In this document: in pieces, positions 3,569-7,219 of the stretch
How positions within the stretch are numbered: position 1 is the first letter of the stretch
Layout: each line of letters begins with the position of its first letter
From: Sphingomonas limnosediminicola
Lineage (GTDB): Bacteria; Pseudomonadota; Alphaproteobacteria; Sphingomonadales; Sphingomonadaceae
Assembly: GCF_039537965.1 (NCBI RefSeq)
Contig: NZ_BAABBM010000001.1
Coordinates: 1,116,001 to 1,180,000, forward strand
Length of the DNA: 64,000 bases
Reading direction: 5' to 3'
Notes under the pieces: model-generated
Databases searched by the model: none
What the model saw: only the letters and a program-made list of their open reading frames with translations
What the model was told of the DNA's origin: nothing
Translations under genes and position numbers: made by a program

Positions 3569-4165
3569 CTAAGCTGCCACCACCGCACGGGCCATCAAAG
3601 CCGCGGCTTCGCCAACGTCAAAGGAACCGCTCAACACCCTCCAACAAGCGAAGTTCAGCGCCACTGCTAATAATGCGCGGGGACTTTCTCCCAACCCGTT
3701 CCCGAGGGTCGCGGCAGCGCGGTCGAAAGTCGGGCCCATTCTCAGCTGCACGATCTCACGGGTCAGATCGTGAACCTCCGCATCGCGAAGCACCGCCGAG
3801 GTAAGCTGCTCATTGCGCGCGTACCAAGCATAAAGGTCCTCCAGGCCCCGGCGAAGGCGCTCCAACCCCGCGGGATGCTCAGCCCAGTCGTCCACATCTG
3901 GAAGAGGATCGCGCTCCAACGCCAACGCTGAACAGGCCACCATCAAGCTCCGGTCGCTCGGGAAGTGCGCGTAGAAGGTATGCCGTTGCACGCCCGCCCG
4001 TTCGGCGATCTGAGCGATGGTGGTTCGCGCGGGACCGACGCTCGTGTGGAGATCGACCGCAGCTTCGACAATCCGTCGCCTGGTCAATTCCTGCTTCTCC
4101 GCGCGCTTGCCCAACGTGTAGCGGCGCGCTTTCGGTACACCTTCGCGTGCATTCGAATTTGACAT
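3569..4165 (-). CDS. TetR-family transcriptional regulator
   Basis: A 198-aa repressor-like protein. The N-terminal helix-turn-helix is clear: TRRRIVEAAVDLH, then TTIAQIAERAGVQRHTFYAHFPS, the usual TetR recognition block. The C-terminal helical half should bind a ligand and dimerise; its ligand cannot be told from sequence. It is divergent from the metallo-beta-lactamase-fold gene at 4222, and a palindrome (4181-4192) lies in the shared gap. Auto-repression and control of the neighbour is the simplest inference. Confidence 0.88.
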   Translation of the reverse strand: MSNSNAREGVPKARRYTLGKRAEKQELTRRRIVEAAVDLHTSVGPARTTIAQIAERAGVQRHTFYAHFPSDRSLMVACSALALERDPLPDVDDWAEHPAGLERLRRGLEDLYAWYARNEQLTSAVLRDAEVHDLTREIVQLRMGPTFDRAAATLGNGLGESPRALLAVALNFACWRVLSGSFDVGEAAALMARAVVAA

Positions 4166-4180
4166 AGGCAGAGATTAGTT

Positions 4181-4192
4181 ACACTATTGTGT
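4181..4192. promoter_or_regulatory. Candidate TetR operator palindrome
   Basis: ACAC-TATT-GTGT, a perfect 4+4 palindrome, sits between the divergent start codons at 4165 and 4222. It is inside the only intergenic space the two genes share, where a TetR-type repressor usually binds. The symmetry is short, so the call is tentative. Confidence 0.4.
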
Positions 4193-4221
4193 GCAGTCAA
4201 ATTGAGTCGTGGAGAAGTCCC

Positions 4222-4944
4222 GTGGCTGCCAAGGTTACCGAACTCACCGACGGCATCTTTCGCTTGTCGGTACTTGTACCCGAAATGGGTCCGCCAAACG
4301 GTTTTGTGTTCAACAGCTTCCTCATTGTCGACGACGAGCCCCTGCTCTTCCACGCCGGTCAGCGCGGCATGTTCCCTTTGTTTCGTGATGCCGTGGCGTC
4401 GGTGATGCCGGTGGAGAGCCTCCGGTGGATCAGCTTCGGCCACGTGGAAGCCGATGAGTGCGGAGCCATGAACCTGTGGCTTGAGGCGGCCCCCCATGCA
4501 GAAGTGGTGCACGGAGCCACTGCCTGCATGGTTTCGCTCAACGATCTCGCCGATCGGCCTCCCCGTTGCGTTGCAGACGGCGAGCTCATCACATCAGGCA
4601 AACGGCGCATTCGCTACTTTGATACGCCGCACGTGCCCCACGCCTGGGAATCCGGTGTGGTGTTCGAGGAGACAAGCGGCATTCTTTTCTGCGGTGACCT
4701 CTTCACGCAGTTCGGGGGTGAAGCGAGCACGCGCGATGACATTGTTCCTGCGGCTATCGCCGCGGAGGATGCATTCCACTCCTCCAGCGTTAATCCAGCT
4801 ACGGCGCCGACGCTTCGTCGTCTGGCCGAACTTAAGCCGACCGGTCTCGCGCTGATGCACGGCCCGACCTTCTTTGGCGACGGCGCAGAAGCACTCAACC
4901 GCCTTGCCGACTACTATGCCGGCCTGCTCAAGGCAGCAGCCTGA
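4222..4944 (+). CDS. Metallo-beta-lactamase-fold protein of the ODP (diiron) type
   Basis: A 240-aa cytosolic protein with the metallo-beta-lactamase fold as in the oxygen-binding diiron domain of A-type flavoproteins, but without a flavodoxin part. Metal-ligand motifs are GHVEADECG near residue 75, DTPHVPH near 137, FCGDLF near 159 and MHGP near 213. The classical flavodiiron motif HxExDH is here HxExDE, which I believe is common in this stand-alone branch. Activity on O2, NO or another substrate is unknown. GTG 4222 follows GGAGAAG with good spacing; an upstream GTG at 4189 lacks this and overlaps the palindrome. It is divergent from the TetR gene. Confidence 0.72.
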   Translation: MAAKVTELTDGIFRLSVLVPEMGPPNGFVFNSFLIVDDEPLLFHAGQRGMFPLFRDAVASVMPVESLRWISFGHVEADECGAMNLWLEAAPHAEVVHGATACMVSLNDLADRPPRCVADGELITSGKRRIRYFDTPHVPHAWESGVVFEETSGILFCGDLFTQFGGEASTRDDIVPAAIAAEDAFHSSSVNPATAPTLRRLAELKPTGLALMHGPTFFGDGAEALNRLADYYAGLLKAAA

Positions 4945-5014
4945 TCCCGCTTTGCGCCCGCGGCCACTTCCACAGATTCTTGCCGCTAGTTGCGCGCTTC
5001 GCTTCCGACGCGGC

Positions 5015-6376
5015 CTAGAATGCAATCCACGTGAAGAGTCTCAGGGCGTTGTTGTCATGCGCATTCGCGCCCGCGAAGTCATAATCGTGCCGGCTGCCGT
5101 TGAACTTGCCGTAGAGCGTATACTGGACACCGAACCTCGCATTGAACCTTGGGCCTAGCGGCGAGTTGCCTCCTCCCCACGGGGTGAAGTCGATCTGGCC
5201 TAGCACGCCGTTGCTATCGGGCCGGCCATTGCCCTCGTACAGATTGAAATTTCTCGAGCCGCTGATGCTGAAGGGGGAAACCGTCAAACCGACCTTGCCG
5301 TGCCAGGTGTAACGGACGGCGGCGCGCCATTCGTTCAGATGATAGCGCGCGCAGGCAGGATCGGTGCCATCGCCGACGAGCGCTAACGCGCAGCTTGCAC
5401 GGAGATCGCCGTTTTCATGCTCGAAGCGAACATTGGCGCTGAGCGAGTCGGACTTGCCCACCGATCTCAACCAGGAGCTGTCGAGTCCCCAATCCGTGTA
5501 GTGATCGGTGAAGCCGCTCGAACGGTCGCGTTCGGGGAAGATCGCCGCGTGGAGCACGTTCGCCCCGATTTCGAATGTGCCACCGGCAAGGTCCGCCTGG
5601 TAAGCAATACGACCGTAGGGTGCGATGCCATGCAGGGACCCGGGGTCTTTGGGATCCATGCCGACGAAATTTAGGAACCCGCGCGAGGGGCTAGAATAGG
5701 CTCCGGCCTCAACATAGACTTTATGGTCGAACCAGCCGTAGGCCGAGAGCCCTAAGGTGTTGCCGCCGAGCGGATCGTCGATCAGCTCCCCGGCACCAGG
5801 CGTTTCCGAAACCGCAGTGTCTGTGAACGGGAAACCCCATGCCGGAAGTGTATTCCAGGGGTCCTGGGCGGTCGGATTGTTGTTCAGTGTCAGGCCAATG
5901 ATCGCGTCTTGTCCGAAGACCTTCGCGTTAGTGACGGCGCGAAGGTCGATATTATCCCAGGACCATGCGCGTCCCACACCGTCATAGGTGACGAGTTGGG
6001 CAAAGCCGCCGAAATGCTCGCCGATTCCTCCGGCAACGAACAGGCTCGCCTGATCGAGCACGAGATTGTCATTGCGGTTTAGGTGCTCCGGGGGCGGAAC
6101 CTGATCCTTTTGGGTATGCGTCCATGATGCAATTGCCATCGCGGAAAGCGGTACCGACTTGTGCATCCGCAACGTGTAGCCGCCCAGCTTGAACTCTCGT
6201 CCGAACTGCGTGAGTTCGGGTCCGAAACCGCCCACGTGGCAAGCCGCGCAATTGCGGCCCGTCTGCTCTGCAAATGCGGGAACGGCCTCTGCCGGACGGT
6301 GGAATGCGAGAGCGATCCCGAAGAGCGCCGCCCCCGGTAAAAAAGCCGATTTCCAGCTGAACTTCATCGCTTTCAT
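5015..6376 (-). CDS. Fused monoheme c-type cytochrome and outer-membrane porin, Cyc2-like
   Basis: A 453-aa exported protein. After a signal peptide ending near PAEA, the mature N-terminus has VPAFAEQTGRNCAACHVGGFGP with one heme-c motif CAACH at residues 43-47, then LTQFGREFKLGGY. The rest (about 75-453) is rich in alternating aromatic and polar strands with Gly/Asn/Asp turns and ends in Phe (LFTWIAF), as outer-membrane barrels do. One heme domain fused to a barrel is the architecture of Cyc2, the outer-membrane Fe(II)-oxidising cytochrome, and the residues around the heme fit that family. The substrate here is inference. ATG 6376 is chosen; it lies 22 bp after the HiPIP stop codon, so the two form an operon. 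Confidence 0.68.
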   Translation of the reverse strand: MKAMKFSWKSAFLPGAALFGIALAFHRPAEAVPAFAEQTGRNCAACHVGGFGPELTQFGREFKLGGYTLRMHKSVPLSAMAIASWTHTQKDQVPPPEHLNRNDNLVLDQASLFVAGGIGEHFGGFAQLVTYDGVGRAWSWDNIDLRAVTNAKVFGQDAIIGLTLNNNPTAQDPWNTLPAWGFPFTDTAVSETPGAGELIDDPLGGNTLGLSAYGWFDHKVYVEAGAYSSPSRGFLNFVGMDPKDPGSLHGIAPYGRIAYQADLAGGTFEIGANVLHAAIFPERDRSSGFTDHYTDWGLDSSWLRSVGKSDSLSANVRFEHENGDLRASCALALVGDGTDPACARYHLNEWRAAVRYTWHGKVGLTVSPFSISGSRNFNLYEGNGRPDSNGVLGQIDFTPWGGGNSPLGPRFNARFGVQYTLYGKFNGSRHDYDFAGANAHDNNALRLFTWIAF

Positions 6377-6398
6377 GGCACACCCCCAAGTCGTGATG

Positions 6399-6674
6399 TC
6401 AGCTCTTTGGAGCATACAGAATGCACCATCCGGCCGGGCTGACCGGGCCTTCGACTTGTTGGCACTGGTTCGGAGCCTGCCAGAGCGCGCATGTTTGGCA
6501 CCGCTGCCCAGACTTCGGGATCGGCTGATAATGCGCCTGCTTTTGCGAGAACTTCTTGGACGCTGCGGATGCTCTGCCGCTCACGGTTACCGCGACTAGG
6601 GAGCCGGCGCCCACCGCCGCGATGTTAAGAAAGTCCCTGCGAGAGACTGGCCCGGACTGCTCTTGGTTTGACAT
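6399..6674 (-). CDS. High-potential iron-sulfur protein (HiPIP), Tat-exported
   Basis: A 91-aa periplasmic electron carrier with a [4Fe-4S] cluster. The N-terminus has a twin-arginine signal, SRRDFLNIAAVGAG, with a cleavage region near GRASA. The four cluster cysteines are at 59, 62, 71 and 84 (C-x2-C-x8-C-x12-C), inside CQTCALW, NQCQQVEGPV and PAGWCILY, which are diagnostic for HiPIP. ATG 6674 is preceded by GGAG; the same frame continues upstream without a Tat signal, so that extension is not coding. It is the first gene of an operon with the cytochrome-porin and would carry electrons between it and the inner membrane. Confidence 0.9.
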   Translation of the reverse strand: MSNQEQSGPVSRRDFLNIAAVGAGSLVAVTVSGRASAASKKFSQKQAHYQPIPKSGQRCQTCALWQAPNQCQQVEGPVSPAGWCILYAPKS

Positions 6675-6964
6675 GGCAATTACTCCACTTCGCATCGTGA
6701 AGAATTGCGCGCGGTATGACCCCTGCGAAATAGGTATATACGCGTACGCTCCGACGTTCAGTGCGCGAACAATCGACGACGGCGGCTGACGCAGATGGAC
6801 GCTTCTCCTCCGCCTCAGAGCTATCGGAGCAAATTTACGGCACGAGCATCGAGACGTCACCGGCGCATCGGCCCCAATGCGTGACCCGCATCGGCATGAT
6901 CGATGCAAAGACGCCTCGATTGAGCTCGCGGGTGACCGCCGAGGCGCTGGTAGTTGGCTGAGGC

Positions 6965-7002
6965 TGGTGGAGCTTAGGGGAATCGAACCCCTGACCTCTG
7001 CA
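6965..7002 (-). other. tRNA-Ala 3' fragment (probable attachment-site scar)
   Basis: Read on the minus strand this is the last part of a tRNA: end of an anticodon stem (TGCAGAGGTC), a perfect T arm (AGGGG-TTCGATT-CCCCT), the acceptor strand AAGCTCC and ACCA. No D arm or 5' acceptor strand follows beyond 7003, so it is not a full gene. A truncated 3' end is the usual footprint of integration at a tRNA 3' end. In that reading the former element lay to the right (above 7003) and the native chromosome to the left. Confidence 0.7.
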
Positions 7003-7027
7003 GTGCGATTGCTCCGTTGTACCTGGA

Positions 7028-7049
7028 AAACCCCAGAAAACTGGGGTTT
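7028..7049. repeat. Perfect 9-bp hairpin next to the tRNA fragment
   Basis: AAACCCCAG (7028-7036), loop AAAA, CTGGGGTTT (7041-7049). It may be a terminator or an arm-type site of the former mobile element. The whole stretch 6675-7474 holds no convincing gene: I see only the HiPIP upstream region, the tRNA fragment, this hairpin, one dispersed repeat at 7189 and the leader of the 7475 gene. Confidence 0.5.
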
Positions 7050-7188
7050 ATGTTTGGAACAAAACCAGCTCAAAGCAGCAAATCTAGCGGTTCGCGATAC
7101 CATTGAGATACCAGCCGAAAATGCCGCAATTCGAAAATTGCAAAGGAAGTCTGGCACCGAATTCGACCGTCAGCGGACCGTTTGCATT

Positions 7189-7219
7189 ATGGCAACTATC
7201 GACCCATTCCTGCCATTAG
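7189..7219. repeat. Dispersed intergenic repeat, copy 1
   Basis: ATGGC, then ATCGACCCATT, then GCCATTAG. Shares the core TTTCGACCCATT (one mismatch) with the copies near 12400, 12755, 13552, 16236, 17575 and 18572. Its ends (ATGGC / GCCAT) are complementary, so it can fold. Confidence 0.6.

Follow-up and report, generated by a model that had tools for sequence, protein, structure and literature searches.

A HiPIP gene beside a Cyc2-type cytochrome-porin gene in Sphingomonas limnosediminicola: a probable outer-membrane electron-uptake unit

Can a sphingomonad take up electrons across its outer membrane with as few as two proteins? The question is raised by a pair of adjacent genes in a 64,000-nucleotide stretch of the Sphingomonas limnosediminicola genome (contig NZ_BAABBM010000001.1, positions 1,116,001 to 1,180,000; hereafter the window), which encode a high-potential iron-sulfur protein (HiPIP) and a protein that, judged by homology, belongs to the Cyc2 cytochrome-porins. 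We conclude that the pair probably lets the cell draw electrons from dissolved iron outside, that is, it would oxidise Fe(II). Both genes lie on the minus strand, the gene of a PioC/Iro-like HiPIP upstream (6399..6674; 91 amino acids) and the cyc2-type gene next (5015..6376; 453 amino acids), with 22 bp between the HiPIP stop and the cyc2 start (6377..6398). A sequence-only reading of the window had described a HiPIP exported by the twin-arginine (Tat) route and carrying four cysteines, followed after 22 bp by a protein with one CxxCH and a terminal Phe, and both coordinates and description proved correct.

The start and the reality of the genes deserve a remark. An in-frame ATG at 6415 would yield a 466-residue cytochrome-porin overlapping the HiPIP gene; we adopted the 453-residue start because a signal peptide, recognised by reading the translation, follows it and because a relative, genome G1005, shows the same layout with a gap of 25 bp. 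The cytochrome-porin is no chance reading frame, since it has 2153 homologs at an expect value (E) of 1e-3 or lower among 7996 candidates scored. Compared with G1005, the ratio of nonsynonymous to synonymous substitution (dN/dS; NG86) is 0.054 for cyc2, over the 395 codons that precede a frame break in the G1005 gene, and 0.144 for the HiPIP gene over 91 codons, which suggests purifying selection on the two.

Is the second protein a Cyc2? Keffer et al. (PMC8406198) recognise Cyc2 by the signature AXPXFAR[Q/K][T/Y], given as the consensus of all homologs, by a CXXCH motif, by a PXL motif four residues after it, by a length of at least 365 amino acids and by a 16-strand porin. The window protein has a signal peptide, ends in Phe and is barrel-like in its body; its heme region reads AVPAFAEQT-GRN-CAACH-VGGFG-PEL. 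Within it, AVPAFAEQT (residues 31–39; 6260..6286, minus strand) corresponds to the signature with E in place of R, and CAACH (residues 43–47; 6236..6250, minus strand), the sole CXXCH of the protein, constitutes a heme c site whose C43, C46 and H47 are invariant in alignment A4. The PXL motif is represented by PEL (residues 53–55; 6212..6220, minus strand), five residues past the heme His.

For comparison, Cyc2 proteins of iron oxidisers were sought with rusticyanin as bait, which gave 18 loci, several of them on short stretches; seven contain a Cyc2, including those of Acidithiobacillus ferruginosus, A. ferrivorans and A. ferrianus. Six were compared with the window protein, leaving out L131, a second contig with the same strain and Cyc2 as L130. 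Four Cyc2 from Acidithiobacillus or Acidithiobacillus-like genomes align with it nearly end to end at 26.7–28.1% identity (E 1e-33 to 5e-26 within a set of 54 sequences), while of two from metagenome-assembled genomes (MAGs) one shows 26.2% identity and the other aligns in two pieces. Against the rus-operon Cyc2 of A. ferruginosus the pairwise E, which is not a database E, is 9e-28, where BLASTP similarity at 1E-5 is asked of a Cyc2. Hence the proposed likeness to Cyc2 is borne out both around the heme and along the chain, and the sequence data indicate that the window's cytochrome-porin is a Cyc2 homolog.

Among the closest known systems is the Cyc2 of the Acidithiobacillus rus operon, which by elimination is cluster 2 of Keffer et al. 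(PMC8406198) and is described there as a 16-strand porin. Besides near full-length homology, it shares with the window protein the single CXXCH near the mature N-terminus and an aromatic C-terminal residue; it differs at about 27% identity, in the R that is E in the window protein, and in a shorter spacer between CXXCH and PXL. Unlike the rus operons, the window locus lacks any cytochrome c gene within 3 kb and, from reading the neighbouring open reading frames, any rus gene. The Mariprofundaceae, to which Mariprofundus ferrooxydans PV-1 belongs, have Cyc2 proteins that share the heme motif and the spacing before CXXCH, but BLASTP matches only about 40 residues, most of them near the heme (for Mariprofundus aestuarium, 23 of 40 residues are identical), and does not align the barrel. 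Likewise, A. ferrooxidans Cyc2 resembles the Cyc2 of neutrophiles mainly around the heme (PMC5566968). No Pfam or NCBIfam family scored over its cut-off for the protein, a PDB sequence search with it gave no match, and viral contigs, when scanned, held nothing related to it; rusticyanin, searched in 20 genomes with an A1 match, gave weak matches in two, none over the cut-off.

The body of the protein is predicted by AlphaFold2, with Foldseek and VIA-align, to form a 16-strand β-barrel (residues 77–452; 5021..6148, minus strand), so that we regard it as a predicted 16-strand outer-membrane porin. The sequence-only reading had named a predicted 16-strand barrel with the heme plug as a check; the barrel held, but the model does not resolve the plug. 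With one heme site and 16 predicted strands, the protein does not correspond to the Pio/Mto conduit, which consists of a decaheme cytochrome and a 26-strand porin.

The partner is a small HiPIP of the same type as PioC of Rhodopseudomonas and Iro of Acidithiobacillus. It carries the twin-arginine signal SRRDFL (TIGR01409, 17.7 bits, cut-off 16.7; PF10399, 24.5 bits, cut-off 24) and scores 25.0 bits with Pfam HIPIP (PF01355; cut-off 22). Its four cysteines (residues 59, 62, 71 and 84; 6423..6500, minus strand), invariant in the nine-row alignment A2, are presumably the [4Fe-4S] ligands, as in the HiPIP family. The best PDB match is PioC (6xyv; E 1e-11, residues 39–90). PioC comes from the photoferrotrophic pio operon, where its partners are the decaheme PioA and the porin PioB (PMC10654088); unlike PioC, the window HiPIP adjoins a monoheme Cyc2-type porin.

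What would such a pair do? We consider it probable that it constitutes a minimal outer-membrane electron-uptake unit, most likely for Fe2+, which would supplement the energy gained from organic compounds or remove Fe(II). A dissolved donor, most likely Fe2+, would enter the barrel, reach the monoheme plug on the periplasmic side and reduce it; the heme would then hand the electron to the co-encoded HiPIP, which could pass it to the respiratory chain, be it to an aa3-type oxidase, to the nitrite reductase NirK or to bc1. The Cyc2 steps follow the model of PMC8406198, and the HiPIP step is proposed by analogy to PioC and from gene order. The genes, their homology and motifs, the barrel prediction, purifying selection and repeated pairing with periplasmic carrier genes are what the analysis shows; we infer heme loading, orientation, identity of the donor, the HiPIP as direct acceptor and the route further downstream. 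Two COX1-COX2 pairs are encoded in the genome, one of them aa3-type by reading and the other with COX_ARM (quinol-oxidase-like), as are cytochrome c1 and proteins of cytochrome c assembly.

Several observations weigh against this interpretation. To our knowledge, no characterised Cyc2 falls in the subclade of the window protein. All fixed positions of the signature but R are matched, so a strict reading of the signature leaves the protein out, and the spacer from CXXCH to PXL is one residue longer than published. For nearly all of residues 18–73, the plug, the AlphaFold2 per-residue confidence (pLDDT) lies below 50, so the position of the heme is unsupported by the model. The best NCBIfam model of the HiPIP, Iro (NF041615), reaches 64.2 bits, below the equivalog cut-off of 100. 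Cyc2 is missing from 67 of the 71 genomes sampled in the genus and is therefore dispensable. The co-occurrence test, finally, partly reuses genomes that seeded the profile: within the family the association (Cyc2 in two of four HiPIP genomes, p 0.005, both being the seed genomes G000, the window's own, and G154) weakens to p 0.08 once the window's genome is removed and vanishes without both seeds (none of two). In the class, HiPIP and Cyc2 are found together more often than expected: five of seven HiPIP genomes have Cyc2 (p 3.8e-7), and two of four do without the three seeding genomes (p 0.0036). Of nine genomes with a HiPIP match in the class, G328 and G531 are excluded from these counts because of stops in the matched frames. 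Co-occurrence is hence supportive in the class, not in the family.

The motif deviations are shared by relatives. In a tree of 54 rows, the window protein's clade comprises 14; none of these keeps the signature R, nine having E instead, and every one has the five-residue spacer before PXL. A marker search that demands R would overlook the Cyc2 proteins of this clade. The same substitution bears on the best-surviving alternative, namely that the conduit is real but serves another substrate or the other direction, taking electrons from reduced organics or other metals or disposing of them to Fe(III) or humics, with the HiPIP as the partner in the periplasm in both cases. We hold this to be possible, if rather unlikely. 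The changed R, mostly to E, marks the window's subclade, many organisms that are not known to oxidise iron have Cyc2 homologs, for which other functions are left open (PMC8406198, PMC5566968), and Cyc2 isoforms have been linked to Fe(III) reduction in acidithiobacilli (PMC10715153). However, the closest solved HiPIP, PioC, belongs to an Fe(II) oxidation operon, and HiPIPs are high-potential carriers, which favours oxidative uptake. The potentials quoted for HiPIPs span +0.05 to +0.5 V (PMC10654088).

Further insight comes from the carrier genes beside cyc2. Eleven loci of the family were examined, eight from the family search and three more from the genus search: a HiPIP gene lies upstream in three and a monoheme cytochrome c gene overlaps downstream in eight, while no locus has both and none has neither, in agreement with a HiPIP-profile scan. 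Nine loci could be judged on both sides, with the HiPIP upstream in the window's genome and G1005 and a cytochrome c gene overlapping the cyc2 end in seven others (G111, G227, G090, G134, G003, G234 and G1024). At the remaining two the contig ends close by: in G154, with a HiPIP upstream, it stops just past cyc2, leaving room for a downstream cytochrome c, and in G1031, with an overlapping cytochrome c, it begins 153 bases before cyc2, leaving room for an upstream HiPIP. Around the window pair, no other CXXCH frame lies within about 3 kb. A search for open frames with at least two CXXCH, which covered the 64-kb window and 19 kb surrounding the pair, found none. Within the family, the electron carrier neighbouring Cyc2 is thus exchanged, HiPIP against cytochrome c, and this exchange beside the same outer-membrane protein offers a natural experiment on the immediate acceptor of Cyc2.

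In other lineages a HiPIP gene lies downstream of cyc2 (G252), upstream of it (two cases, G317 and G677) or divergent from it (G794), and Caballeronia sp. SBC1 has a HiPIP of a more distant type upstream of Cyc2, together with a two-CXXCH cytochrome. No HiPIP match was found at Acidithiobacillus-type Cyc2 loci, in agreement with their labels on the tree; four of these loci (L093, L085, L138, L083) show less than 2 kb on one side. On the tree, the seven HiPIP rows among 46 labelled require at least six changes, and 110 of 500 shuffles gave a count as low. The count excludes ten rows whose context could not be used, namely four named sphingomonads, five Mariprofundaceae and G752, which is on a short contig. 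Since the label is not clustered, we rejected a single origin of the HiPIP neighbour with plain vertical inheritance. That Cyc2 can stand beside a HiPIP was already known from Bradyrhizobium, where it is clustered with a HiPIP and three periplasmic cytochromes c (Percak-Dennett 2017, cited in PMC5566968), as was its presence in organisms not known as iron oxidisers (PMC8406198, PMC5566968). The Bradyrhizobium cluster, likened here by its description, is alphaproteobacterial like the window pair but adds the three cytochromes; the sphingomonad pair, with the HiPIP as only neighbouring carrier gene, adds a member to this known kind.

These neighbourhoods also speak to a second alternative, in which the pair is a detoxifying or redox-sensing porin that oxidises Fe2+ outside the inner membrane with no meaningful energy gain. 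Patchy distribution and the small two-gene unit would suit it, but the recurrent electron-carrier neighbours suggest coupling to the chain, even if dissipation is still compatible with them, and we regard this explanation as improbable. That the pair is decaying or assembled by chance and functionless is highly improbable: Cyc2 is missing from the majority of genomes sampled in the genus, an adjacent tmRNA-like fragment hints at past integration and the G1005 cyc2 match is split over two frames near its 3′ end, but the dN/dS values of 0.05 and 0.14, the intact motifs and the pair order kept in G1005 argue otherwise. If the pair indeed takes up electrons from Fe2+, some sphingomonads would be part-time iron oxidisers, and biological Fe(II) oxidation would have to be counted more widely.

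Where could the electrons go? The window's genome has a HiPIP paralog in a second cluster (G000:C1, about 2795954-2802577; locus L110:7955-14578), which is 77% identical to the window HiPIP over 81 residues by BLAST and 70% over 91 codons. It lies directly upstream of the copper nitrite reductase NirK (TIGR02376, 318.7 bits, cut-off 296.3), with a qNor-like COX1 protein, NnrS and a Crp/Fnr regulator beside the two; possibly this is a partial denitrification cluster with the HiPIP as donor. Electrons might thus reach nitrite as well as oxygen. Together with the clean carrier exchange at one locus, this paralog is the less ordinary aspect of the system, and it makes it possible to test whether enzymes couple Fe(II) directly to nitrite.

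In such a circuit, HiPIP would be the shared wire: Cyc2 would reduce its HiPIP and the nirK-side HiPIP would feed nitrite reduction, so that a sphingomonad would oxidise Fe(II) enzymatically at the expense of nitrite, with neither a decaheme conduit nor a dedicated cytochrome c. On this reading, HiPIP has taken the place of cytochrome c as the carrier at the Cyc2 locus of this lineage. We consider this doubtful. By tblastn, no NirK was found at six further HiPIP loci in five alphaproteobacterial genomes or at one in G155, and no second HiPIP-NirK neighbourhood was found, which weakens the nitrite idea; so does the family co-occurrence of HiPIP and Cyc2, which is lost without the seed genomes. 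At L164 a qNor homolog lies about 3.4 kb from the HiPIP; for a weak HiPIP match in G172 the check was by reading. Four of 12 HiPIP plasmid records were examined: three have no annotated NirK or Cyc2, and the unannotated L168 gave no tblastn match.

How widespread is Cyc2 among relatives? In the window's genome cyc2 is single-copy, and homologs occur, counting this genome each time, in eight of 249 genomes sampled in the family, four of 71 in the genus and 13 of 385 in the class. Among 398 genomes searched with a profile across the phylum, 89 gave a match, many of them in a family of mostly small genomes (f188), which we take to be Mariprofundaceae because the Cyc2 of one member is listed as a Mariprofundus aestuarium protein. 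The sequence-only reading had called such a pair rarely reported from sphingomonads; consistent with this, literature listings yielded no publication on it, yet homologs exist in Sphingomonas sediminicola, S. agri, Sphingomicrobium MAGs and Polymorphobacter. In trees of 54 and 56 rows, from which G1005 was left out owing to its frame break, the window protein groups with those of S. sediminicola, S. agri and Sphingomicrobium in a well-supported, sphingomonad-rich clade distant from Mariprofundaceae.

Horizontal transfer of Cyc2 has been reported (PMC12442345), and the patchy distribution is in keeping with it. In G1005 the pair has other surroundings, with groEL-like and glutamate-cysteine-ligase-like genes nearby (from reading the translations), so that the pair itself appears to be the unit moved or retained. 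Base composition gives no sign of a foreign origin, the GC content being 60.1% in cyc2, 61.2% in the HiPIP gene and 61.7% in the window. Cyc2-like genes with a downstream c-type cytochrome also lie on plasmids (L004, L005 and L009, from A. ferrooxidans YQ-N3 and two Acidiphilium), which suggests plasmid-borne movement; layout and match score are the same for the loci of A. ferrooxidans and A. cryptum, and the A. multivorum gene is annotated as two pieces.

Around the pair, a search of 4900-7200 turned up no sigma-70-like promoter. On the minus strand, 70 bases (6965-7034) that lie upstream of the HiPIP gene and end in a T-arm, acceptor and CCA match Rfam tmRNA at 36.3 bits, below the gathering score of 47, and with a large deletion; ARAGORN reports no tRNA or tmRNA in the window, and the G1005 stretch has no such match. 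The fragment is possibly an old integration scar. Downstream, an ODP-family metallo-β-lactamase gene (4189-4944, plus strand; PF19583, 50.1 bits) is convergent with cyc2 and adjoined by a TetR regulator gene (3569-4165).
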